Source: Aquificaceae bacterium (lineage in GTDB: Bacteria > Aquificota > Aquificia > Aquificales > Aquificaceae). From it: a stretch of 39,279 bases of DNA. Below, one piece after another: positions 2,934-20,153 of this stretch. Made by a program: the position numbers and the translations under genes. The stretch spans positions 1-39,279 of the forward strand of contig JALWVU010000068.1 of NCBI GenBank assembly GCA_027079305.1, in the 5' to 3' direction. How positions within the stretch are numbered: the first letter of the stretch is position 1; every line of letters begins with the position of its first letter. A model generated the notes under the pieces. It was not told the origin of the DNA, made no database searches, and saw nothing but the letters and a program-made list of their open reading frames with translations.

Positions 2934-5297
2934 TTGGAAAAGAAGCGCGTTCTTGATGTTGCAAAGGAGCTCGGACTGAAACCCAAGGAGCTTATCGAGT
3001 TTCTCGAAGAGTGGGCTCCGAGGGACGACGGAAAGAACTGGTCTAACTTTCACCAGCTTGAGGACTTTCACCTCGAGATGATATACCAAGAGTTCGGTGA
3101 GCCCAAAAAGAAAGAGGAAAAGAAGGAGACAGCGGTAGCAATAGAGGAGAAAGAGGAGAAAAAGGAAGCTCCTGAAGAGGAAGAAGAGATAAAGGTAGAG
3201 GAGAAACCCATAGAGGAGGTTGTGGCGGAGGCCCTCGGGAAGGAGGTGAAAGAAAAACCCAAGGAAGAGCTAAAACCCCGCAAACCTGAGAGGAAGCCGA
3301 GGCCGGATAGAAAACCTCCGAGGGAGTTCAGAAGACCTCCGAGATTGGAAGAAAAACCCAAGGAGCCTCCTAAACCTGTAGAAGAAAAGAAGGAGGAGAA
3401 AAAACCACAGCCCGTCGCTGAGGAAAAGAAGAAGGAGAAGCTCTCCAAAGAGGAGGAGCAAATCCTCAAGAAGCTTCAACAGCAGATAGAAAGGGAGAAG
3501 AAGAAAGAAGAAAAGAAGCAGAGGGAGAAGAAAAAGGAAGACGAGATAAAGATAGTGGAGATCCACGAGGGAATAACCGTAAGGGAGCTGGCGGAACTTC
3601 TGGGCCTGCCCGCCAACAAGGTTATAGAGGCTCTCCTTAAGAAAGGTATACTCGCTACCATAAATCAGCCCGTGCCCACGGATGTGGCGGTAGAGGTGGC
3701 GGAGAGCTTCGGCTTCCTCGCGGAGGCCAAGAAGGAGGAAGAGGAAGAGGTCCTGATAGAGGAGATTCCGGACAAACCCGAGGATCTAAAGCCCAGACCC
3801 CCCATAGTCGTGGTCATGGGGCACGTTGATCACGGTAAGACTACGCTTCTGGACACTATAAGGAAAACTAATGTAGCGGAAAGAGAAAAGGGTGGTATAA
3901 CCCAGCATATTGGTGCATCACAGGTAAAGCTCCCGGACGGAAGGGTCATTACCTTCCTCGATACGCCGGGGCATGAGGCCTTTACCACGCTGAGGGCGAG
4001 AGGTGCACAGATAACAGACATAGCTGTCCTCGTGGTTGCGGCGGACGACGGTGTCATGCCCCAGACCATAGAAGCAATAAACCACGCTAAGGCCTTTGAC
4101 GTTCCCATAATAGTGGCGGTGAACAAGATAGACAAGCCCGGTGCGGACCCTATGAAGGTCAGGAGAGAGCTTTCCGAACACGGCCTCATTCCCGAGGACT
4201 GGGGAGGAGACACCATATTTGTGGACGTATCCGCCAAGACAGGTCAGAACGTGGATCAGCTCTTGGAGATGGTATCTCTGCTCGCGGATATATTGGAACT
4301 GAAGGCAAATCCAAACAAGAGAGCCAAAGGTGTGATCATAGAAACAAAGCTCGATAGGAAAAAAGGACCTACCGCCACGGTTATAGTGCAGGAGGGAACC
4401 CTTCGCGTGGGGGATGTGTTCGTTGCGGGGATAACCCACGGAAGGGTCAGGGCAATGTTCGACGATAAGGGCAGGCAGGTAAAGGAAGCGGGACCTTCTA
4501 CACCCGTGGAGGTGCTCGGCTTTGAGGATCTTCCCGAGGCTGGGGATACCCTCGTCGTTGTCGAGAACGAGAGGAAGGCGAGGGAGCTTGCGGAGAAGAT
4601 AAGGGAGAAGAGAGAGAAAGAGGAGAAACTTACCCAAAGCGTAAGACTTGAGGACATATACAAGAAGATAGAATCCGGGGAGGTAAAGGAGCTTAGGATA
4701 ATCGTCAAGGCGGACACGATGGGATCCCTCGAAGCCCTGAAGAAATCCCTCGAGGAACTCTCCACGGACGAGGTTGCGGTAAGGATAATACACGGGGCGG
4801 TCGGAGGTATAACCGAGAACGACGTTATGCTCGCCAAGGCTTCAGGGGCTATCATAATCGGCTTCAATACGAGGCCCGATCCTAAGGCGAGGGAGCTTAT
4901 AGAGAAGGAAAAGGTGGACGCCCGCATGTATGGGATCATATACCAGGTGATAGATGACGTTAAGAAGGCTCTCCAGGGACTGCTGGAGCCCGTGGAAAGG
5001 GAAGAGGTCCTCGGCTCCGCGGAGGTCAGGGCTACCTTCAAGGTCAAGAAGTTTGGGACGGTTGCGGGATGTTACGTCCTTGAAGGCAAGATAGTCAGAG
5101 GGGCCAAGGCCAGACTGATAAGGGATGGAGTTGTTGTCTACGACGGCCAGATAGAGAGCCTCAGGAGGTTTAAAGAGGACGTTCAGGAGGTCGCGAGAGG
5201 CTACGAGTGCGGAGTGAAGCTCAAAGACTTCAACGACGTTAAGGTCGGAGACATAATAGAATGCTACGAGATAAGGTTAGAACAGAGAGAGCTGTAA
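2934..5297 (+). CDS. infB: translation initiation factor IF-2
   Basis: A cytoplasmic GTPase that places initiator fMet-tRNA on the 30S subunit and promotes subunit joining. The 787 residues contain an IF2_N-like helical module at 2-55, a long Lys/Glu-rich linker (about 55-205), and a second IF2_N module at about 211-265. The G domain follows, with GHVDHGKT (near 296), [20 protein letters not shown] and SAK, and then domains II-IV (EF-Tu-like, IF-2 and C-terminal tRNA-binding). All GTPase motifs are intact. The start is a TTG with an excellent AGGAGGT site. The usual partner nusA is not upstream. The 3' end overlaps queE by 37 nt. Confidence 0.98.
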
Positions 5298-11397: not shown

Positions 11398-11814
11398 ATG
11401 CTGAGGTTCTTGATGCTTCTAATCGTTGGAGCATCTATATTTTCCTACGCCCAGCACACAGGATGGGTGACGGACTTCAGAAAGGGTGTTGAGATAGCGA
11501 AAGCCCAGAACAAGGAGGTTCTCATATATTTCTACGGGGAGCACTGTCCCTACTGCATCCAGATGGAGGAGTTCGTTCTCGGGGATCCTGAGGTGGACAG
11601 ATTCATAAGGGAAAGGTTCGTGGTGGTCAGTATCGATGCGAGCAAATCTGAGGAACTTAACAGAAGGTTCGGTGTGTTCGGGACCCCCTACTTCGTAGTA
11701 TACGATCCCGAGAGTGATAGAATAATCCTGAAGATCTTTGGGAGCAGGGAGAGGGATGACTTTCTCAACTTGCTTATCAGAGCTTGTAAAAAATCCAGTT
11801 TAAGGAGGTGTTAG
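11398..11814 (+). CDS. periplasmic thioredoxin-fold protein of the sox cluster (SoxW-like)
   Basis: A 138-residue exported thioredoxin-like protein. It has a signal peptide (about 1-18, ending SYAQ), a redox motif Cys50-Pro-Tyr-Cys53 in YGEHCPYCIQME, and the cis-Pro loop GTPYFVVYD. Thioredoxins at this position in sox clusters (SoxW, SoxS) keep the SoxY or SoxAX cysteines in the right redox state; assigning that role here is inference from context. The start is taken as 11398; a second ATG at 11413 has GAGG upstream but would leave a short signal peptide without its Arg. It ends at the soxY ribosome site, only 2 nt before the soxY ATG. Confidence 0.85.
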   Translation: MLRFLMLLIVGASIFSYAQHTGWVTDFRKGVEIAKAQNKEVLIYFYGEHCPYCIQMEEFVLGDPEVDRFIRERFVVVSIDASKSEELNRRFGVFGTPYFVVYDPESDRIILKIFGSRERDDFLNLLIRACKKSSLRRC

Positions 11815-11816
11815 AG

Positions 11817-12278
11817 ATGATTACAAGAAGGGACCTTTTTAAGGTCGCGGGAGTGGGAGCGGTGGCACTCGTTGCTGCTCCCGGAGCGGTGAGCCAGTCC
11901 TTCGGGGCAAAGCCCAAGAAGATCTCCATTGAGGACGCCCTCAAGGAGCACCTCGGAGTAGGGTTGTCAGGTCTAAAAGAGAGCAACCTTATCAACGTCA
12001 AAGCTCCCACGATAGCCGAATCCGGAGCCAACGTTCCCGTCCAGGTTTCCGCCAACATACCCGTGGATCAAGTTCAGGCTCTTTACATATTCGCGGATGC
12101 CAATTTCAACCCCTGGATAACTACCGTAGAGTTCTCTCCTATGAACGGGGAGGTATTCTTCGCTACAAGGATAAAGCTCGCTAAAACCTCTCCTGTCAGA
12201 GCTGTTATAAAGATGAAGGACGGCTCTCTTCTTACCGCATCTAAGGAAGTCAAGGTCACCGTAGGTGGATGTGGTTAA
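11817..12278 (+). CDS. soxY: SoxY, sulfur-carrier subunit of SoxYZ
   Basis: Carries covalently bound sulfur intermediates during periplasmic thiosulfate oxidation. The 153-residue protein starts with a Tat-type signal (MITRRDLFKVAG, twin Arg4-Arg5, then a hydrophobic stretch to about residue 27). It ends in the diagnostic GGCG swinging arm, whose Cys152 carries the sulfur. I start at ATG 11817, which has AAGGAGG (11802-11808) 8 nt upstream; a GTG at 11808 lies inside that site and is rejected. soxZ follows after 34 nt. Confidence 0.96.
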   Translation: MITRRDLFKVAGVGAVALVAAPGAVSQSFGAKPKKISIEDALKEHLGVGLSGLKESNLINVKAPTIAESGANVPVQVSANIPVDQVQALYIFADANFNPWITTVEFSPMNGEVFFATRIKLAKTSPVRAVIKMKDGSLLTASKEVKVTVGGCG

Positions 12279-12312
12279 TAAAAACTTCAAAAACTTTAAA
12301 GGGAGGTAGAAG

Positions 12313-12645
12313 ATGGCAAGATTGGGAAGAGCTATAGTAAGAGTTCCGAGGAGAATCAGCAAGGGACAGGTATTCAAAGTCCAGATGGTCATCACCCACC
12401 CCATGGAGACCGGTTTCAGGAAGGACAAGAAGACCGGGAAAGTTATCCCTGCCCACTACATAACCAAGGTGGAATTCCTTTTCAACGGCAAGAAGGTGAC
12501 CACCCTGCATACCGGACCCGGTATAAGTAAGAACCCCTACTTCGCGGTTAAGATGAAGGCTACCGAGTCCGGAACTCTTACCATCAAATATGAGGACAAC
12601 AAAGGAGGCAAGTGGGAGAAGACCGTTAAGGTCAACGTTTCTTGA
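12313..12645 (+). CDS. soxZ: SoxZ, partner subunit of SoxYZ
   Basis: A 110-residue beta-sandwich protein without a signal peptide. SoxZ is exported by riding with the Tat-dependent SoxY. It shows VQMVITHPMETGFRKDKKTGKVIPAHYI, the characteristic SoxZ stretch, followed by NPYFAVKMKA. A GGGAGG site precedes the ATG. soxA begins 14 nt downstream. Confidence 0.96.
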   Translation: MARLGRAIVRVPRRISKGQVFKVQMVITHPMETGFRKDKKTGKVIPAHYITKVEFLFNGKKVTTLHTGPGISKNPYFAVKMKATESGTLTIKYEDNKGGKWEKTVKVNVS

Positions 12646-12659
12646 AAGGAGGGGTTAAG

Positions 12660-13499
12660 ATGAGAAAAAGAGTTCTGCTCACTTCAGCAGTTTTAGCCGG
12701 AGGGGCGTTTCTAACGGCGGCGGTGGCTCAGGAACAGCTCCCTACACACTTGAAGGAACTTCTCGAGCTGGGGATGCACCCCGGACATGCTTACGTGGAC
12801 GAAGGTCGTGAGATGTTCCACACACCCGGGCCCAACGGAAAGTCCTGCGCTACCTGCCACGGGCAGGATGGTGCAGGTGTAAATGGTAGGCTAAATTTGC
12901 AAGGAGCTTACGCTAAGATGCCCAGATACTACAAGGATATAGACAGGGTTGCCGACATAGACACGAGGATCCTCGCCTGTATGACCAAATACATGGGCTA
13001 CGACAAGAAGGATAAAAAGTTCATGAAGCAGTTCAAGAAGTGGAGTGGTCCTTACAGGGTTCCTCTCGCCTCTTACGTAGCATCGCTCAGCAACGGTATG
13101 AAGATAGACGTCAAGCTCGACGATCCTCAGGAGAAGGAACTTTACAAGATGGGAGAGAAGCTGTGGTATATGAGGGTAGGAGCGAGGGATTTTTCCTGTG
13201 GTATATGCCACACCGTCCTCGCTGGTAAAAGGATAAGGCTTCAGGGCTTGCCGGATCCTGTCAAAAACAAGGTCTATGCCCACTGGCCGGCCTACAGATT
13301 CGGTTCGGACAGAATGTGGACTATGGAAGATAGAGTTAGAAGCTGTTTCAAAGCTTACTTGCTCTATACTAAGCAGTGGAGTAAGAAGGACTGGGTCAAG
13401 AAGCCACCACCCTTCTCCGATTGGGTTATAGCCCTTGAACTTTATATGAAGCATGCGGCTAACGGAGCCATTATTGAAGTTCCCGGACTGCTGAGGTAA
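12660..13499 (+). CDS. soxA: SoxA, diheme cytochrome c subunit of SoxAX
   Basis: With SoxX it oxidatively couples thiosulfate to the SoxY cysteine in the periplasm. From ATG 12660 the protein has 279 residues, a Sec signal (1-23, ending AVAQ), and two heme-binding motifs, CATCH (63-67) and CGICH (180-184). It is thus the diheme type rather than the form whose first site has decayed. Cys107 (RILACMTKY) and Cys229 (DRVRSCFKAY) stand at equivalent places in the two halves and are the likely distal heme ligands; the second would be the active-site cysteine. A TTG at 12642 lies upstream of the AAAGGAGG site and is rejected as a start. Confidence 0.95.
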   Translation: MRKRVLLTSAVLAGGAFLTAAVAQEQLPTHLKELLELGMHPGHAYVDEGREMFHTPGPNGKSCATCHGQDGAGVNGRLNLQGAYAKMPRYYKDIDRVADIDTRILACMTKYMGYDKKDKKFMKQFKKWSGPYRVPLASYVASLSNGMKIDVKLDDPQEKELYKMGEKLWYMRVGARDFSCGICHTVLAGKRIRLQGLPDPVKNKVYAHWPAYRFGSDRMWTMEDRVRSCFKAYLLYTKQWSKKDWVKKPPPFSDWVIALELYMKHAANGAIIEVPGLLR

Positions 13500-13514
13500 A
13501 AAGGAGGGGCGAAG

Positions 13515-14105
13515 ATGAAAAAGATAGTTCTCGCAGGAGCTTTTGTAGGCTTGGGTCTGCTGGTGGCGTGTCAGCCCGCAGCACAGAAGGCTGAGGCTCC
13601 AAAGGCTGAGAAGAAGGCGGAAAAGAAGAAGCTGAGTTCCAAGGAGAAGTTCAAGATAGCTCTCGCCAACCAAGACAAGTGGCAGAAGGCCTGCTCCAAC
13701 CCCACACAGCTCGTTCCAGAGGGTATAGACATAGAGACCTTCAAAAAGGAGATGCTCGCCACTGTCAAGTTTCCTGAGGGCGGTGTGGTTGGTAAGAACA
13801 TCGCGAGAGGTGAGAAGCTCTTCGGAGATCCCAAGAAAGGTGGAAAGAGCAGGAGAGGTAACTGCTACGCCTGCCACTGTGGAGATCCAAAGATAATCGC
13901 CTGCGGTAACATAGGACCTTCCCTGAGAGGATACGGAAAGAGGGGTATAGATCCCAAGGAGACCTACATAAGGATCTACAACTCCTGGGCCCAGAACCCC
14001 TGTTCGGTAATGCCAAGGCTCGGCTATCATGGGGTTCTCAAGCCCGAAGAGATTGCGGATATCGTCGCTTACATGCACGATCCAAACTCTCCGCTTAACA
14101 AGTGA
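13515..14105 (+). CDS. soxX: SoxX, monoheme cytochrome c subunit, predicted lipoprotein
   Basis: Electron-accepting partner of SoxA. The 196 residues include one heme motif, CYACH (Cys117, Cys120, His121), followed by a conserved-looking C at 122 and 130, and a late MPRLGYHG that offers the methionine ligand. Unusually, the N-terminus ends in LLVAC at residue 19, a good lipobox, followed by an Ala/Lys-rich linker (20-42). SoxX is thus likely anchored to a membrane by lipid rather than free in the periplasm. An AAAGGAGG site precedes the ATG. A GC-rich hairpin follows the stop. Confidence 0.93.
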   Translation: MKKIVLAGAFVGLGLLVACQPAAQKAEAPKAEKKAEKKKLSSKEKFKIALANQDKWQKACSNPTQLVPEGIDIETFKKEMLATVKFPEGGVVGKNIARGEKLFGDPKKGGKSRRGNCYACHCGDPKIIACGNIGPSLRGYGKRGIDPKETYIRIYNSWAQNPCSVMPRLGYHGVLKPEEIADIVAYMHDPNSPLNK

Positions 14106-14110
14106 TCTTT

Positions 14111-14134
14111 TCAGGGGCCCTTCGGCCCCCCTGA
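14111..14134 (+). terminator. GC-rich hairpin between soxX and soxB
   Basis: TCAGGGGCC and GGCCCC(CC)TGA can pair around a CTTC loop, with two bulged C residues or a register shift. Only TTT follows directly; a run of seven T lies further on at 14168-14174. It may act as a partial terminator or an mRNA-stabilising 3' hairpin that separates soxYZAX expression from soxB. Confidence 0.5.
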
Positions 14135-14198
14135 TTTCCAACATAGATTCTCGTTTTGTGTTATTTCTTTTTTTATGTCTGATAGGAGGTAACGGCAG

Positions 14199-15953
14199 AT
14201 GCATCTAACGCGCAGGGACTTCTTAGAACTTGCCATCGTTACGGGCGCCTACCTGAGTACCAATCCGGTAGCTGCGCTCGCCAAGATGAAGTATGAGGAC
14301 ATAATGAGGTTTAAGCCTGTCGGAAACGTCACCCTCATATTCACAACCGACATGCACGCCCACCTGGATCCGCTCTATTTCGCTGAACCCATGAACCTTC
14401 TTGCTCCTAAACAGCTTCAGGGGAAACCGGGATACATCACCGGCATGGACTTTCTCAAATACTATAAGATCGCTCCGGGAACCCTCGAGGCCTACTTCAC
14501 CAGCTGTGTTGAATTTCCCAAACTGGCCGAGAAGTTCGGTAAGATGGGGGGAGCGGAATATATAGCCTCGGTGATCAAGCATATAGTTGAAGAGAGGGGA
14601 AGGGAAAAGTGCCTGATAATGGACGGCGGAGACACGTGGACCACCACCGCCATAGGGACCTTCACGGAAGGAAAGGCGGTAGTGGACTGGATGAACTATG
14701 TGGGATACGACTACTTCGTCGCCCACTGGGACTTCACCTTCGGTAAGGACATATTCCTCAAGAGGATAGAGGATCTAAAGAAAGGTGGTTGTGAGTTCAT
14801 AACCCACAACGTTGTAGATGAGTTGTGGGGAGAGCTTGTATTTAAACCTTACTCGATAAGGGAGGTAAACGGCGTCAAGCTCGGTATAATAGGAAGCTCC
14901 TTCCCTTACACTCCCATAGCCAACCCCAGACAGTTTGTTGAGGGATGGAGTTTCGGTATAAGGGAGGACCAGCTCCAGCAGTTCGTAAACGAGCTCAGGG
15001 AACAGCACAAGGTGGACGCGGTCATATTCCTCACCCATAACGGCTTGCCCCTCGACCTGAAGATAGCGGAGGTGGTCAAGGGTATAGATGTGATAATCTC
15101 CGGACACACCCACGACGTAACACCTCAGGCTGTCAGAGTTGGTAAAACCCTCGTGGTCATAGCGGGATCTCACGGTAAGTTCGTTGGAAGGCTCGATCTT
15201 GATATCAAAAACGGAAGGATAAGGAATTACAACTTCAAGCTCTATCCGGTCGCTTCCAACCTCATACCTCCGGACAAGGGTGCGAGGAAGGTTGTGGAGA
15301 AGTGGAGGAAGCAGGTAGCCGATAAATACAAGCTCGACGAGGAGATAGGTGTAGCGGAAGTCATGCTCTACAAGAGGGATACCTTCTTCTCCACCTGGGA
15401 CTGGCTCGTGGGAGAGGCTATAAACGATTACTACGGTGGAGATCTTGACGTAGTTCACTCTCCCGGCTACAGATGGGGGACCACGGTCCTTCCCGGTCAG
15501 AAGATCACGGTAAACCACGTTTACGACTACACCGCGATAACCTATCCTAACGTTTACGTTCTAAAGAGAACCGGTAAGGATCTGCTCAATATATGGGAGG
15601 ACGTGGCGGACAACGTCTTCAACCCGGATCCCTTCTATCAGCAGGGTGGGGACATGACGAGGATATGGAACGTGGAATACGAGATAGAGATAAACGGACC
15701 CCAATACAAGAGGATAAAGAGGGTCTGGATAGGGGGTAAACCCCTGAAGGAAAACAAGGAATACCTGATAGCGGTTTACGGTGGACCGCCACCACCCCCG
15801 GATGCCATACATCCCGACTACAAGCCCGTTCCCGTATACGACATACTCATCGACTACATCAAAAAGAAGAAGAACATAAATGTAAGAACAAAGCCCAACG
15901 TAAAGGTCCTCGACGCTCCCTACAAGACTTACGACCAGTGCTATAAGGTATGA
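14199..15953 (+). CDS. soxB: SoxB, sulfate thioesterase/thiohydrolase
   Basis: A dimanganese enzyme of the metallophosphatase/5'-nucleotidase family that hydrolyses sulfate from the SoxY-bound intermediate. The 584 residues have a Tat signal (TRRDFLELA, Arg5-Arg6, hydrophobic to about 28). Metal sites are at TTDMHAHL (Asp51, His53), DGGDTW, a later THNG, and SGHTHDV. The second domain (about 380-560) carries the family's NHVYDYTAITYPN. The start has AGGAGGT upstream. Spacing to soxX is 93 nt with a hairpin, so it may have some independent expression. The stop overlaps the first DUF302 gene by 4 nt. Confidence 0.96.
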   Translation: MHLTRRDFLELAIVTGAYLSTNPVAALAKMKYEDIMRFKPVGNVTLIFTTDMHAHLDPLYFAEPMNLLAPKQLQGKPGYITGMDFLKYYKIAPGTLEAYFTSCVEFPKLAEKFGKMGGAEYIASVIKHIVEERGREKCLIMDGGDTWTTTAIGTFTEGKAVVDWMNYVGYDYFVAHWDFTFGKDIFLKRIEDLKKGGCEFITHNVVDELWGELVFKPYSIREVNGVKLGIIGSSFPYTPIANPRQFVEGWSFGIREDQLQQFVNELREQHKVDAVIFLTHNGLPLDLKIAEVVKGIDVIISGHTHDVTPQAVRVGKTLVVIAGSHGKFVGRLDLDIKNGRIRNYNFKLYPVASNLIPPDKGARKVVEKWRKQVADKYKLDEEIGVAEVMLYKRDTFFSTWDWLVGEAINDYYGGDLDVVHSPGYRWGTTVLPGQKITVNHVYDYTAITYPNVYVLKRTGKDLLNIWEDVADNVFNPDPFYQQGGDMTRIWNVEYEIEINGPQYKRIKRVWIGGKPLKENKEYLIAVYGGPPPPPDAIHPDYKPVPVYDILIDYIKKKKNINVRTKPNVKVLDAPYKTYDQCYKV

Positions 15954-16450
15954 GGGCGATACTCTTTCTGGCGGGGGGACTCCTCGCCGTCTTCGCTTTT
16001 ATCTTTTACGTGAAGAACTACCTGATAACACCCAAGAATATGTTCTTCTTCACCGTTGAGGTGGTGGGGAAAAAGCATGAGGATGTGGTAAAGGAACTTG
16101 TTGACAAGCTCAACCAGAAGGGACTGAAGGTTATAAGAACCCTTCCCATGTCCAAGGTTATTCACGCAAGAGGTATCAAAGACTTTCCCAACTACACCAC
16201 GGTCCTCGCCTGCGACATACCCCAGAAGAAGGAGATCCTGCTGAAGGTTCCCTTCATGAGCGTCCTTATACCGTGCAGTGTTGCGGTTTACGAGAAGAAC
16301 GGCAAGGTTTACATTACATCCATGAAGGAGATGCTCTTGGTTAAGGACTACTCACAGGAACTCGGAGACAGATACGCACAGATAATAGTAGACACATACC
16401 AAAAGCTCAGGATAGCGATGGCGGAAGTGGCAGGGGGCAAGAAGGAATGA
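15950..16450 (+). CDS. membrane-anchored DUF302 protein
   Basis: A 166-residue protein with a single N-terminal transmembrane anchor (about 2-26) and a DUF302 domain outside. The signature is VLACDIPQKKEILLKVPFMS followed by IPCSVAVYEKNGKVYI, giving two cysteines about 18 apart that recur in the next gene. The function of DUF302 is not established. Its 4-nt overlap with soxB and placement inside the cluster suggest a role in sulfur metabolism, such as a sulfur or thiol carrier; this is inference only. Confidence 0.82.
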   Translation: MRAILFLAGGLLAVFAFIFYVKNYLITPKNMFFFTVEVVGKKHEDVVKELVDKLNQKGLKVIRTLPMSKVIHARGIKDFPNYTTVLACDIPQKKEILLKVPFMSVLIPCSVAVYEKNGKVYITSMKEMLLVKDYSQELGDRYAQIIVDTYQKLRIAMAEVAGGKKE

Positions 16451-16899
16451 AGAAACTCCTGCTGATACTTCTTCTAATAACCGGATTTTCGGTAGCTCAG
16501 GAGAAAAGAGAGCACCCTCTTCAGTATGAGGAGGTTATAGAAGGCCTGGACTTTGAAGACGTTAAACTCCTTCTGAAAACCGCTCTCGATGGTAGAAACA
16601 TGAACGTTCTCGGTGTCGTGGACGTTTCTACCCAGAAGCCGAGGTTCTCTTACATACTCGTCTGCAACCTCTCTTACGCAGAAAAGATCTTCAGGGAGTT
16701 CCCCCAGCTCGGTGTAATGGCTCCCTGCAGGATATACCTTTACGAGAGGGAAGACGGCTCGGTAGTTGTGGGATTTATAAATGTGGAAACACTGCTGAGG
16801 TTGTTTAAAAAAGAGTTATCCCCCACAGCCAAGGAGCTGTTCAAAAAAGCGGATCAGGACGTCAAGTCCGCCATAAAAGAGGTTAAGGGGGAGCTATGA
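16447..16899 (+). CDS. secreted DUF302 protein
   Basis: The 150-residue sister of the preceding gene. It has a cleavable signal peptide (1-17, ending FSVAQ) instead of a membrane anchor. It keeps the paired cysteines: YILVCNLSYAEKIFREFP and GVMAPCRIYLYEREDG. The two proteins probably arose by duplication and may work as an anchored and soluble pair. ATGA overlaps occur on both sides, so translation is coupled through soxB and the two DUF302 genes into the MBL gene. Confidence 0.82.
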   Translation: MKKLLLILLLITGFSVAQEKREHPLQYEEVIEGLDFEDVKLLLKTALDGRNMNVLGVVDVSTQKPRFSYILVCNLSYAEKIFREFPQLGVMAPCRIYLYEREDGSVVVGFINVETLLRLFKKELSPTAKELFKKADQDVKSAIKEVKGEL

Positions 16900-17864
16900 A
16901 GCTACTGATCCTGCTCTTTATTCTCTCCTTCTCTATGGCCTCCGAGTATCCGAAGCATGTTAAAGAGACTCTTAAAAAGATAAAGGGCAACGTCTACGGA
17001 GTCTTTGGCGTATACGAACAGGTGAGCTACGAAAACAGGGGTTTCATCTCCAACGCCTACTTCGTGATAACTGACGAGGCTGTAGTGGTAATAGACGCGC
17101 TCACCACCTACAAGCTGGGAAAGGAGCTGGTGGAGACTATAAGGAGTCTGACAAAGAAGCCTATAAAGTTCGCGGTTATAACCCACTACCACACGGATCA
17201 CTTCTACGGGGTGGGGGCTCTGAAGGAGGCGGGAGCTGTGGTGATAGCCCACGAGTGGGCTTTTGATTACATCTCTCAACCTTCGAGCTGGAACTTCTAC
17301 GAGGCGAGGAAAAAGATCTTGAAAGAGCACATGGAAGGAACCGAGATGGTGGAGCCTGACATAACCATAACCCAGGACCTCGACATCCACTCGGGCAAGA
17401 GCAAGTTCGTGGTCAGGCATTACTGCAAGGGTCACACTCCCGGGGACGTAGTGGTATGGATGCCCGAAGAGAAGGTTCTTTTCAGCGGGGATCTCGTCTT
17501 CGACGGGAGAATTCCCTTCCTTGGGTCGGGCAACTCCAAAACCTGGCTTGTGTGTTTAAAGAAGATACTCGAGCTCGATCCAGAAGTTTTACTTCCGGGG
17601 CACGGCAAACCTATGCTGAATAAGGAAAAGATAAGGGATAGGGTTAACTGGACCTACAAATACATAAGTGATCTAAGAAACACCATAAGAAGGATGATAG
17701 AAGAGGGCAGGGACATAGATTACGTAAGGGAGCACATAAACGAGGCTCTTCTGGAGATAGATCCCTCCTACGCTCAGGTCCCCGTCTTCTTCGATGTGAA
17801 CCCCGTGAACGCCTACTACGTTTACTTTGAAGTGGAAAATGAGATGCTGGAAGAGGGAGAGTGA
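16896..17864 (+). CDS. periplasmic MBL-fold metallo-hydrolase (SoxH-like position)
   Basis: A 322-residue metallo-beta-lactamase-fold protein with a short signal peptide (1-16). The dinuclear metal site is complete: HYHTDH (His97, His99, Asp101, His102), KGHTPGD, SGDLVFDG and PGHGKP. Such hydrolases sit at the end of many sox clusters (SoxH) and near quinoprotein relay systems; the substrate is not known, and a thioester or persulfide-related one is a guess. It is last in the cluster, overlapping the second DUF302 gene by 4 nt. Confidence 0.85.
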   Translation: MKLLILLFILSFSMASEYPKHVKETLKKIKGNVYGVFGVYEQVSYENRGFISNAYFVITDEAVVVIDALTTYKLGKELVETIRSLTKKPIKFAVITHYHTDHFYGVGALKEAGAVVIAHEWAFDYISQPSSWNFYEARKKILKEHMEGTEMVEPDITITQDLDIHSGKSKFVVRHYCKGHTPGDVVVWMPEEKVLFSGDLVFDGRIPFLGSGNSKTWLVCLKKILELDPEVLLPGHGKPMLNKEKIRDRVNWTYKYISDLRNTIRRMIEEGRDIDYVREHINEALLEIDPSYAQVPVFFDVNPVNAYYVYFEVENEMLEEGE

Positions 17865-17900: not shown

Positions 17901-20153
17901 CTAAGATTTCTTAAATTTTCCTATTCTTCTGAGCGCTATTACAACCGGCACGAGAACAACCGCAAGTATTGTGTTCAAAGATACAGCGGAGCATCCACCA
18001 CCGGACGATTGATTGTCCTGGGCTGTGTTCTGGGCTGTGCTTCCGGAAAGATCCGCCGTAAGTTTTGATATGAACACATCATTATTCCCGGCGTTTGTAG
18101 TCTGGAAAGCTCCCTGTGTTATGGGAAAGTTGGTAGAATCTGTATTCCCAGCTATGTAAACATTACCGCTTGAGTCCAAGAGAATAGAGATAGCGCTATC
18201 TGATGTGCCACCTCCAATATAGGTTGAGGCTACCAGACCTGACATATCCGCACTTAGCCTTGTTACGAATGCGTCTCTAAGGCCACCAGCGTAGTCAGTC
18301 TGATACACATTCGGAGTAACGGGGAAATCGGTTGATTCTGTATATCCCGCAACATAGATATCTCCATTCTGGCTTAAAGCTATGGAATAGATGCGGTCGT
18401 CCGAACTACCTCCCAAGTATGTGGATGCTATAAGATTGCTCAGGCCTCCATCCAGCTTGGCTACGAAGGCATCTTCCCCTCCAGGATTTTTGTGCAGGTT
18501 TTGGTAAGGGTTTCCCGCGGTGGGGAAATCGGTTGATGTTGTATAGCCCACTATGTAAACATTTCCATTCTGATCCAGCTTTATAACCAGCCCCGCATCG
18601 TCGCCGTTTCCTCCTAAGTAGGTGGAAGCAAGGAGACTTTGCAGGCCTGAATCAAGCTTGGATATGAAAGCATCCTTCTGCCCGCCTCCGTGTGTGCTTT
18701 GATACGCATTGTTGGTGGTTGGAAAATCATTTGATAGTGTAGTTCCCGCAACGTAAATATTCCCGTTAGAGTCCACAACCATAGACGATATCTCCTCAGT
18801 TTGACTGCCTCTAAGGCATGTAGCAGCGAGAAGACTACTTAACGCGTTATCAAACTTTGCTATGAAAGCCTCCTCGTCACCTCCGCTACCGTTGCATGCT
18901 TGATAAGGAGAATATCCTTGAGGGGGGAAAGAGTTTGACTGCGTTCCACCCGCAACGTAAATGTTACCCGCTGAATCTATAGCTATGGCCTTTATCCAGT
19001 CAGCGTGAACGGTTCCAACGTATGTCGAAGCTATAATATTTGATAGATCACCGCTTAGCTTGGTTATGAACGCATCACCGCTCCCGATAGAATTCTGGAT
19101 ATACGCTCCAGATGTAGTTGGGAAGTTGTTCGATGTTGTTCTACCAGCTATATAGATATTCCCAGCTTGATCGATAGCTATCGCATCCGCACGTTCGGAG
19201 AAGCTACCCCCTATGTAAGTCGCGGAAAGCAGGTTTGTGAGATCTCCATTCAGCTTCGCCACAAAAACGTCGTTAACACCACCATTGTATGATCCCGCTC
19301 CCGGGAAGTTTTGCGATTCCGTATAGCCCGTTACATAGATATCTCCGTTAGGGTCCATGATCATTGCGGATATGAAATCTCCATTACCACCTCCCAGATA
19401 AGTGGAAGCGAGAAGCGGGTCTATAACTAAGGTTTTAGTCCTATCGTATCCGCCCACTTCAAAACTGTAAGTGTTTCTGGATAGAAGTTTATACCGCACA
19501 GAAACGTTTACCCTCCTGCCATCGATTTCTTGATAGGCCACCGGTTTTGTAAACTTGACCTCACCCAGTTCGGTTCTCACTACAAGTTCACCTGTAATAG
19601 GGTCTATTCTTAAACCTTCCCCACCTTCTACTCTTAGAATTATCCTTTCAGGATCTGCACCGGGCTCCACCTTGAATATCTTTTCAACATTATTACTATA
19701 GGCCTTCAGCTCTAAACTTATACCTTCATAAATCTCACCCAGAGATATTGATTTGAAGGTTTCTAAATTGGTCACCCACTTCTTTTTATCTTTACCTATG
19801 AAGTAACTTACCTTGGTGTTAGCCCTCTCGAGACCTTTCACTCTTTCTACCTTAGCGTTTTCAAGAACTTCCTTAAGCACAATTCCCCCGTGGATCTTAC
19901 CATCTCTAACCCTCGGCAATTTATAAACGAGCTGTCCATCTTTCGTAATGAACAGAGTTCCTCCGAATGTCTTGGCGTAGAACCTGACCCGTTTGTCAAC
20001 CTGTCCCTCATTCTTTATAAAGGGTATGGGAATGCCCTGTAAGACTTTAAAGGCTCTATCTTTGGATCCAGCACTCCAAGCGGAGATACTTACAAACATA
20101 CTAAGAAGTGCTGACGTAAAAGCTATATAAGAGAGTATTGCCCTTATCCTCAT
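17901..20153 (-). CDS. exported SBBP beta-propeller protein with C-terminal anchor signal
   Basis: A 750-residue protein with a signal peptide (1-28). An N-terminal domain follows (about 30-250: IPIPFIKNEGQ...VRFYAKTFGGTLFIT), typical of SBBP-repeat proteins. Seven repeats of about 65 residues come next, each with STYLGG, then DxxGNIYVAGxTxSxxFP, then DAFVAKL. Seven repeats fit a seven-bladed propeller. The tail is SSGGGCS, one hydrophobic helix and RRIGKFKKS: a tripartite C-terminal sorting-type signal with a single cysteine. It is probably a surface or outer-membrane-linked binding protein; the ligand is unknown. A GGAGGG site precedes the ATG. Many AT-rich codons and a repetitive coding sequence set it apart from neighbours. 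Confidence 0.88.
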   Translation of the reverse strand: MRIRAILSYIAFTSALLSMFVSISAWSAGSKDRAFKVLQGIPIPFIKNEGQVDKRVRFYAKTFGGTLFITKDGQLVYKLPRVRDGKIHGGIVLKEVLENAKVERVKGLERANTKVSYFIGKDKKKWVTNLETFKSISLGEIYEGISLELKAYSNNVEKIFKVEPGADPERIILRVEGGEGLRIDPITGELVVRTELGEVKFTKPVAYQEIDGRRVNVSVRYKLLSRNTYSFEVGGYDRTKTLVIDPLLASTYLGGGNGDFISAMIMDPNGDIYVTGYTESQNFPGAGSYNGGVNDVFVAKLNGDLTNLLSATYIGGSFSERADAIAIDQAGNIYIAGRTTSNNFPTTSGAYIQNSIGSGDAFITKLSGDLSNIIASTYVGTVHADWIKAIAIDSAGNIYVAGGTQSNSFPPQGYSPYQACNGSGGDEEAFIAKFDNALSSLLAATCLRGSQTEEISSMVVDSNGNIYVAGTTLSNDFPTTNNAYQSTHGGGQKDAFISKLDSGLQSLLASTYLGGNGDDAGLVIKLDQNGNVYIVGYTTSTDFPTAGNPYQNLHKNPGGEDAFVAKLDGGLSNLIASTYLGGSSDDRIYSIALSQNGDIYVAGYTESTDFPVTPNVYQTDYAGGLRDAFVTRLSADMSGLVASTYIGGGTSDSAISILLDSSGNVYIAGNTDSTNFPITQGAFQTTNAGNNDVFISKLTADLSGSTAQNTAQDNQSSGGGCSAVSLNTILAVVLVPVVIALRRIGKFKKS

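Follow-up and report, generated by a model that had tools for sequence, protein, structure and literature searches.

Do the two DUF302 genes that follow soxB in a sox cluster without soxCD belong to the Sox system, and if so, which of its parts do they serve? The question was raised by a 39,279-nucleotide stretch of DNA from an Aquificaceae bacterium (assembly GCA_027079305.1, contig JALWVU010000068.1), which was analyzed whole and is referred to here as the window. In the window, a sox cluster is extended directly after soxB by two genes for DUF302 proteins (DUF302a and DUF302b) and by a gene for a metallo-beta-lactamase (MBL)-fold hydrolase. A first-pass annotation of the window proposed that, with SoxCD missing, the sulfane sulfur on SoxY had to be passed on or released and that the two DUF302 proteins were candidates for handling it.

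Genes were named with Pfam and NCBIfam profiles and their curated cut-offs. Of 121 Aquificota genomes, 70 had a SoxB match above the cut-off, and each of these 70 carried DUF302 somewhere. We fetched 70 soxB loci from 69 Aquificota genomes other than the window's own; the 10 genomes (of 80 with a SoxB match) that fell below the cut-off were not fetched. In 69 of the 70 fetched loci, no more than 305 bp separated the end of the soxB frame from the start of a DUF302 gene; the exception was a locus (L161) whose contig stops 2 bases past the SoxB match. When the window was included, DUF302 followed soxB in 70/71 Aquificota loci, in agreement with the first-pass assignment of the two genes to the Sox system. 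Genes flanking the operon served as a control in the 60 loci from outside the window's genus. The four upstream neighbors were found near soxB in one of these loci and the four downstream neighbors in none (0/60), whereas DUF302 was kept in 60/60. Because DUF302 was retained and the flanking genes were not, the association exceeds chance neighborhood; the operon is conserved and its surroundings are not. We consider it very probable that the DUF302 pair is a genuine Sox component.

DUF302 genes also occurred away from soxB. The window's genome has a third DUF302 gene (L163, positions 3093-3476; G000, contig C55) that lacks a signal peptide, keeps the cysteine pair, and has neighbors that look unrelated to sulfur. 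Unlinked copies of this type were present in other Aquificota genomes.

The genome that contains the window (2.0 Mb, 75 contigs, 99.86% complete; the window is contig 68) yielded no SoxC. The best match scored 46 bits (cut-off, 420) and lay in a 199-amino-acid open reading frame (ORF), which is too short for SoxC; with 75 contigs, a gap is possible, and SoxD was not searched separately. The first-pass view that the cluster lacked soxCD, and the check that soxCD did not lie elsewhere in the genome, held for SoxC, the member of the two that was searched. SoxC did not reach its cut-off in any of the 121 Aquificota genomes searched. With SoxY, SoxZ, SoxA, SoxX, and SoxB all above their curated cut-offs and no SoxC in the genome, the system is a truncated Sox system.

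The same genome contains genes whose Pfam domains follow the order DsrE-like, DsrE-like, HdrC1, HdrB1, HdrA, hypothetical, HdrC2, HdrB2, DsrE-like, and lipoate-binding GcvH-like. This locus (L310) has the hdrC1B1A-hyp-hdrC2B2 order together with a lipoate-binding protein and was assigned to the sHdr clusters by the reference order in the available text of PMC6335251. The accessible parts of PMC10451225 and PMC11582611 describe sHdr-LbpA as a cytoplasmic system that oxidizes SoxY-derived sulfur in Hyphomicrobium. Since sHdr-LbpA genes are present, the SoxY sulfane sulfur in the window's organism would have a known destination, predicted from gene content to be sHdr-LbpA, and the hand-over step alone would remain. 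The presence of genes for this known cytoplasmic route counts against the idea that the DUF302 proteins are there because SoxCD is missing.

The truncated Sox plus sHdr-LbpA system of Hyphomicrobium denitrificans resembles that of the window's genome, which has the same core genes without soxC and hdrC1-hdrB1-hdrA-hyp-hdrC2-hdrB2 with an LbpA-like gene. In contrast to that system, the window cluster has another gene order and adds the DUF302 pair and a SoxH-like hydrolase, and the YeeE/SoxT-type protein is located elsewhere in the genome. The window's genome encodes a YeeE/YedE-type protein (G000:C65:83168-84442) in which the two halves that align with the profile have changed places; genus g1 and a few others had this type, and many Aquificaceae that carry soxB and sHdr lacked it. 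A link between DUF302 and SoxT was considered and dropped, as PF04143 was found in 46/121 Aquificota genomes and was absent from many that have soxB and DUF302.

If the DUF302 genes are present because SoxCD is missing, as was first proposed, then DUF302 should be enriched near soxB in soxCD-minus genomes. Lineage and SoxCD absence are inseparable within Aquificota because no genome there has SoxC. The comparison was made with 398 Pseudomonadota genomes drawn evenly, 60 of which had SoxB and 39 of these SoxC above the cut-off; 60 of the 62 SoxB matches were fetched (the G396 match and the second G121 match were left out). There was no enrichment within about 9 kb of soxB, where DUF302 was found in 3/20 soxC-minus and 8/40 soxC-plus loci (Fisher P = 0.74). 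Within 2.5 kb of soxB, the counts leaned to soxC-minus loci (3/20 versus 1/40, P = 0.10). In 80 named loci, nearly all alphaproteobacterial and selected as those most like Methylosinus SoxB, DUF302 was present in 4/14 without and 21/66 with a local soxC; soxC status was assigned by locus, and SoxC was searched at the genome level for 32 of the 80. Pfam alone missed one DUF302 locus (G471) that a dedicated DUF302 hidden Markov model found, and a Sulfurovum locus (L165), in which no long soxB frame was found, was excluded from the local soxB table.

Full Sox clusters with SoxC carried DUF302 as well, namely, those of Rhodobacterales and Allomeiothermus. In Rhodobacterales, the DUF302 gene was typically located after soxCDEF and before hemA, a YeeE-type transporter gene, or soxH/soxG. 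The lack of enrichment, the SoxC-bearing clusters with DUF302, and a cysteine pair that proved to be family-wide (see below) all speak against the claim that the DUF302 proteins are there because SoxCD is missing. DUF302 was rejected as a SoxCD substitute on the 3/20 versus 8/40 counts, and we conclude that the DUF302 pair is not a replacement for SoxCD.

Two further observations were made in the named loci. Three alphaproteobacterial loci without a local soxC (L200, L223, and L236) had two divergent DUF302 genes upstream of soxV/soxW, which is a second kind of pair. Two loci titled Oceanobacillus and Stygiobacter (L198 and L193) encoded SoxB proteins 63-64% identical to that of Methylosinus and are probably mislabeled or contaminated.

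Which Sox proteins does the pair follow? In genus g6, four genomes had soxY, soxZ, soxB, and DUF302 and no SoxA match at E ≤ 0.001; one of these genomes is a single contig and 100% complete. DUF302 was in tandem form in three of the genomes, and the contig of the fourth ends inside DUF302. No SoxX homologue was found in the fetched g6 loci (no genome-wide search for SoxX or SoxD was made in Aquificota). Matches to sHdrB1 were confined to family f1; the loci of family f2 carry the DUF302 pair too, and a link between DUF302 and sHdr was rejected on this evidence. Two soxB-less genomes were informative as well. One (G026; g6, one contig, 100% complete) had no soxB, SoxA, or DUF302, and the other (G023; f2, 100% complete) had no soxB or SoxA and a single DUF302, which resembled the unlinked copy of G039 in length and score. 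Because the pair was kept without SoxC, SoxA, or sHdr, and because the soxB-linked type was absent from the two soxB-less genomes, we conclude that the pair follows SoxYZ/SoxB.

The four g6 loci (L153, L157, L159, and L160) showed the reduced cluster order thioredoxin, soxY, soxZ, soxB, and DUF302; on contigs that extend far enough, genes for an exported DsrE and a porin-like protein lie upstream. Between soxY and soxZ, L153 and L160 each encode a small twin-arginine translocation-like protein that is rich in Cys; the L153 copy has no Pfam name. This small protein may be an iron-sulfur protein that replaces SoxXA.

Outside of Aquificota, a Sulfurovum plasmid carried soxXYZA and soxB, followed by genes for a hydrolase, a thioredoxin-like protein, DsrE, a tandem DUF302 protein, and DsrE. 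A SoxC-bearing cluster on an Allomeiothermus plasmid had a tandem DUF302 gene flanked by genes for a rhodanese and a soxF-like product. The tandem DUF302 protein of Allomeiothermus silvanus (L166, 13502-14356) is annotated as "translation initiation factor 2," which is a misannotation. Plasmid searches with DUF302 returned the query's own record and one Pontibacter match only. In Thermus thermophilus, the hypothetical protein gene TTHA1413 was upregulated 5.46-fold (standard deviation, 2.31; p = 0.031) together with sox genes when the TTHA1953 repressor was removed, according to the available portion of PMC10318464. Gene order suggests that TTHA1413 is the counterpart of the Allomeiothermus tandem DUF302 gene.

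The two DUF302 genes of the window appeared to belong together. Two DUF302 domains were found in 64/69 loci and one in 5, at least two of which are explained by a contig end. The two domains were fused in one frame of 265-324 amino acids in 25/69 loci. Separate, adjoining genes were found in the window's genus and others, and the fused form was found in sister genera. In family f2, the second of two DUF302 genes started 1.8 to 4.9 kb after soxB, with a porin gene between the two and, in part of the loci, genes for exported DsrE proteins and a hydrolase as well. To place the window's genes, we built an Aquificaceae tree by a quick search from the window's two copies and those of 25 loci hand-chosen from the 64 that have a pair. 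First and second copies, 26 of each, formed two clades split by one branch (one change; SH-like approximate likelihood ratio test, 98), and fused and separate forms were mixed within them. In this tree, DUF302a was orthologous to the N-terminal half and DUF302b to the C-terminal half of the fused proteins. Since each of the window's genes has its orthologue in one half of a single protein elsewhere, there is good evidence that DUF302a and DUF302b form one unit, and the two are old paralogues that are split in some lineages and fused in others. A wide DUF302 tree, which would have addressed the orthology of first and second domains across phyla, joined the long branches of Sulfurovum and Deinococcota and was not used.

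The first-pass description of both DUF302 proteins as exported with paired cysteines agreed with our reading of their sequences. By inspection, the N-terminus of DUF302a is a hydrophobic helix that looks uncleaved, and that of DUF302b is signal peptide-like; the predicted proteins contain Cys88/Cys109 and Cys73/Cys94, respectively. Among the 64 pairs, the C-x20-C motif was present in both copies in 37 and in one copy in 21; 6 pairs had half a cysteine pair only. Thus, at least one copy usually keeps C-x20-C, and the partner may lose it. The tandem proteins of Sulfurovum and Allomeiothermus likewise have one Cys-bearing and one Cys-free domain. The motif was not a Sox-specific mark, a possibility ruled out by its presence in 26 of 30 unlinked, cytosolic-looking Aquificota copies (the best-scoring among those with loci) and by the alignment of both cysteines with the solved DUF302 structures 1j3m and 1q9u.

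A structural model of DUF302b (predicted local distance difference test score, 90.5) had the DUF302 fold and matched 1q9u with a Z score of 17.1. In the model, Cys73 is placed at the end of one strand and Cys94 at the start of the next. The solved structures 1q9u, 1j3m, and 7tj1 share this fold (Z, 15.6-17.1 over 119-125 residues) and differ in what their titles offer: the titles give no function, and that of 7tj1 names another family. Specifically, 7tj1 is titled as a putative fluoride transporter CrcB, and because it matches the DUF302b model over 125 residues (Z, 16.1), its title does not fit its fold. Weaker matches (Z below 10), such as those to KA1 domains, RnlA, and PR-10, were attributed to common architecture.

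We tentatively propose, at slightly less than even likelihood, that the DUF302 pair works with SoxYZ-SoxB in the periplasm as a partner that handles thiols or sulfur. DUF302a and DUF302b would pair up as a periplasmic hetero- or pseudo-dimer, and the cysteine pair would perform thiol or persulfide chemistry on the carrier cysteine of SoxY. As an outcome, sulfane sulfur would be unloaded from SoxY, or wrongly loaded SoxY would be cleared. The co-encoded thioredoxin would reset the DUF302 site, and the SoxH-like hydrolase or exported DsrE proteins might be optional partners. Because DUF302 is also found in SoxC-bearing systems, a general service role is favored over that of a SoxCD substitute. 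A bolder version of this proposal, which we think rather improbable, makes the pair the missing periplasmic acceptor of SoxY persulfide sulfur; together with SoxYZ and SoxB it would form a minimal core that runs without SoxXA and SoxCD, as g6 suggests, with one copy reactive and the other able to become a non-reactive partner. Several findings weigh against a partner role. DUF302 was absent near soxB in 49/60 Pseudomonadota loci, so Sox can run without it; a Bradyrhizobium DUF302 gene is listed beside ccoG in the available part of PMC6515984, so the DUF302 family has roles outside of Sox; and the cysteine pair is family-wide and halved in 6/64 pairs, which weakens the case for catalysis by it.

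Other explanations account for parts of the data. It is unlikely that the pair takes over sulfane sulfur specifically because SoxCD is missing and passes the sulfur towards the cytoplasm. All 70 Aquificota soxB genomes do lack SoxC and have DUF302, the counts within 2.5 kb of soxB lean that way, SoxCD-less cases in Acidithiobacillia and Thiohalorhabdus are on record (PMC5037610, in part), and the exit of sulfur from SoxY in truncated Sox is termed a mystery in the available text of PMC10451225. However, the whole cluster region and the named loci showed no such difference, the SoxC-bearing clusters of Rhodobacterales and Allomeiothermus carry DUF302, and the SoxCD-less Thiobacillus thioparus has no DUF302 in its sox operon as far as the accessible text of PMC5248467 describes it. 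A less probable proposition is that the pair serves SoxB, through activation or metal loading, and not the sulfur on SoxY. Its position as the nearest gene after soxB throughout Aquificota, the ATGA overlap with soxB in the window, and its retention where SoxA is missing are as this would predict, but the Rhodobacterales genes typically lie about five genes from soxB, and no metal-binding motif other than the cysteine pair was seen in the DUF302 proteins.

SoxXA has a cysteine-persulfide heme ligand, and the pair could conceivably be a maturation factor for these heme cytochromes, for example, for that ligand. The hemA gene that adjoins DUF302 in many Rhodobacterales clusters and the Bradyrhizobium ccoG neighbor would suit this role. 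The g6 genomes do not: tandem DUF302 and soxYZB are kept with no SoxA match in 4/4 genomes, and the loci that were fetched contained no SoxX homologue; SoxXA maturation was largely rejected on this evidence as very unlikely. Turnover of trithionate or another polythionate, proposed for the single DUF302 protein of Thermithiobacillus from the lifestyle of the strains that carry the gene (PMC5037610, in the part available), is more improbable again, as no catalytic residues are known, our analysis supported no active site, and organisms with a complete Sox system have DUF302 too. The least credible explanation is that the pair is a passenger that shares the operon and not the function. The flanking neighbors are lost outside of the genus while DUF302 is kept, and fused and split forms hold the same place.

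How much of this was known? According to the available text of PMC5037610, the SoxCD-less clusters of Acidithiobacillia and Thiohalorhabdus were reported in 2016 to have DUF302 between soxA and soxB, and a part in trithionate oxidation was guessed at; the position is given in the accessible part of PMC5248467 as well. These clusters resemble the window in that DUF302 adjoins soxB where SoxCD is lacking. They differ in having a single gene between soxA and soxB, whereas Aquificota have a paralogous pair or a fused tandem after soxB. In 2023, a sox operon protein DUF302 was named in Acidithiobacillia (PMC10512742, in part). Sulfitobacter sox clusters have DUF302 between soxF and soxH or soxG, as described in the available section of PMC11034169. 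The Rhodobacterales proteins (Sulfitobacter and Ruegeria, L169) are similar to those of the window in being exported-looking, in having a cysteine pair, and in being encoded in a sox cluster near SoxH. Unlike in the window, their clusters have SoxCD, DUF302 is located after soxF, and the second cysteine is two alignment columns earlier, in CPY instead of PC. In the accessible portions of the open literature on DUF302 (subscription journals were outside its scope), we found no description of the Aquificota pair, the fused form, or the independence from SoxCD and SoxA. Thus, DUF302 in SoxCD-less clusters has been known since 2016, and the paralogous pair or fused tandem after soxB in Aquificota appears to be new.

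The unsupported link to missing SoxCD is replaced here by a testable link to SoxYZ/SoxB, and the relevant comparison is DUF302 with SoxYZ/SoxB, not with SoxCD. With or without SoxCD, SoxA, or sHdr, the pair accompanies SoxYZ/SoxB in phyla that are far apart, which makes it a concrete candidate for a missing step, general in nature, in the exit of sulfur from SoxY. Its role could be tested by deletion in Thermus, in which disruption of a sox regulator gene has already been published (PMC10318464, in part).

As read from the sequence, all nine ORFs of the cluster were in place on the forward strand at 11398-17864, in the order thioredoxin-soxY-soxZ-soxA-soxX-soxB-DUF302a-DUF302b-MBL that the first-pass annotation had given (Table 1). 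Its statement that the last four genes were joined by ATGA was borne out at three 4-base joints: soxB/DUF302a, DUF302a/DUF302b, and DUF302b/MBL.

Table 1. Features of the sox cluster in the window
Feature	Position	Strand	Evidence
Exported thioredoxin-like protein, CPYC motif; probable SoxW/SoxS-type SoxY reductase	11398..11814	+	PF13098, 56.9 bits
soxY, C-terminus GGCG	11808..12278	+	TIGR04488, 156.2 bits (cut-off, 125)
soxZ	12313..12645	+	TIGR04490, 125.4 bits (cut-off, 76)
soxA, two CxxCH motifs	12642..13499	+	TIGR04484, 193.6 bits (cut-off, 110)
soxX, one CxxCH motif	13515..14105	+	TIGR04485, 99.1 bits (cut-off, 61)
soxB	14199..15953	+	TIGR04486, 751.5 bits (cut-off, 550)
DUF302a, N-terminal anchor, Cys88/Cys109	15950..16450	+	PF03625, 46.7 bits (cut-off, 23); ATGA overlap with soxB; tree
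DUF302b, signal peptide-like N-terminus, Cys73/Cys94	16447..16899	+	PF03625, 42.5 bits (cut-off, 23); ATGA overlap; DUF302 fold model; tree
Exported SoxH-like MBL-fold hydrolase, THYHTDH metal motif	16896..17864	+	PF00753, 124.3 bits; ATGA overlap

The thioredoxin-like gene was found at the same position in 61/70 Aquificota soxB loci. The hydrolase was closest to SoxH-related NCBIfam models and scored below their cut-offs (168.9 versus 280 for TIGR04559 and 143.6 versus 300 for the other). It is similar in length to Paracoccus SoxH, to which it is 29% identical over 282 aligned positions, and both are sox-linked; however, Paracoccus SoxH has NENGQGH where the window protein has its THYHTDH metal motif. 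Because the hydrolase was under the cut-offs and, unlike Paracoccus SoxH, kept this motif, we call it SoxH-like only, a label based on sequence comparison. The GGCG end of SoxY is one glycine shorter than the GGCGG in the name of the NCBIfam model, and the same was true of all four other Aquificota SoxY proteins read (L102, L105, L106, and L153).

Adjoining the cluster on the reverse strand (17901-20153) is a gene for a large beta-propeller protein that looks exported and contains SBBP repeats and a DUF7948 domain; none of the 70 other loci had a homologue of it near soxB. A promoter scan of the window gave one weak promoter-like site, compared with 5.6 in shuffled sequences, and a terminator scan gave 13 terminator-like sites, compared with 6.2; some of these sites are intragenic, and two overlapping ones lie in DUF302a.

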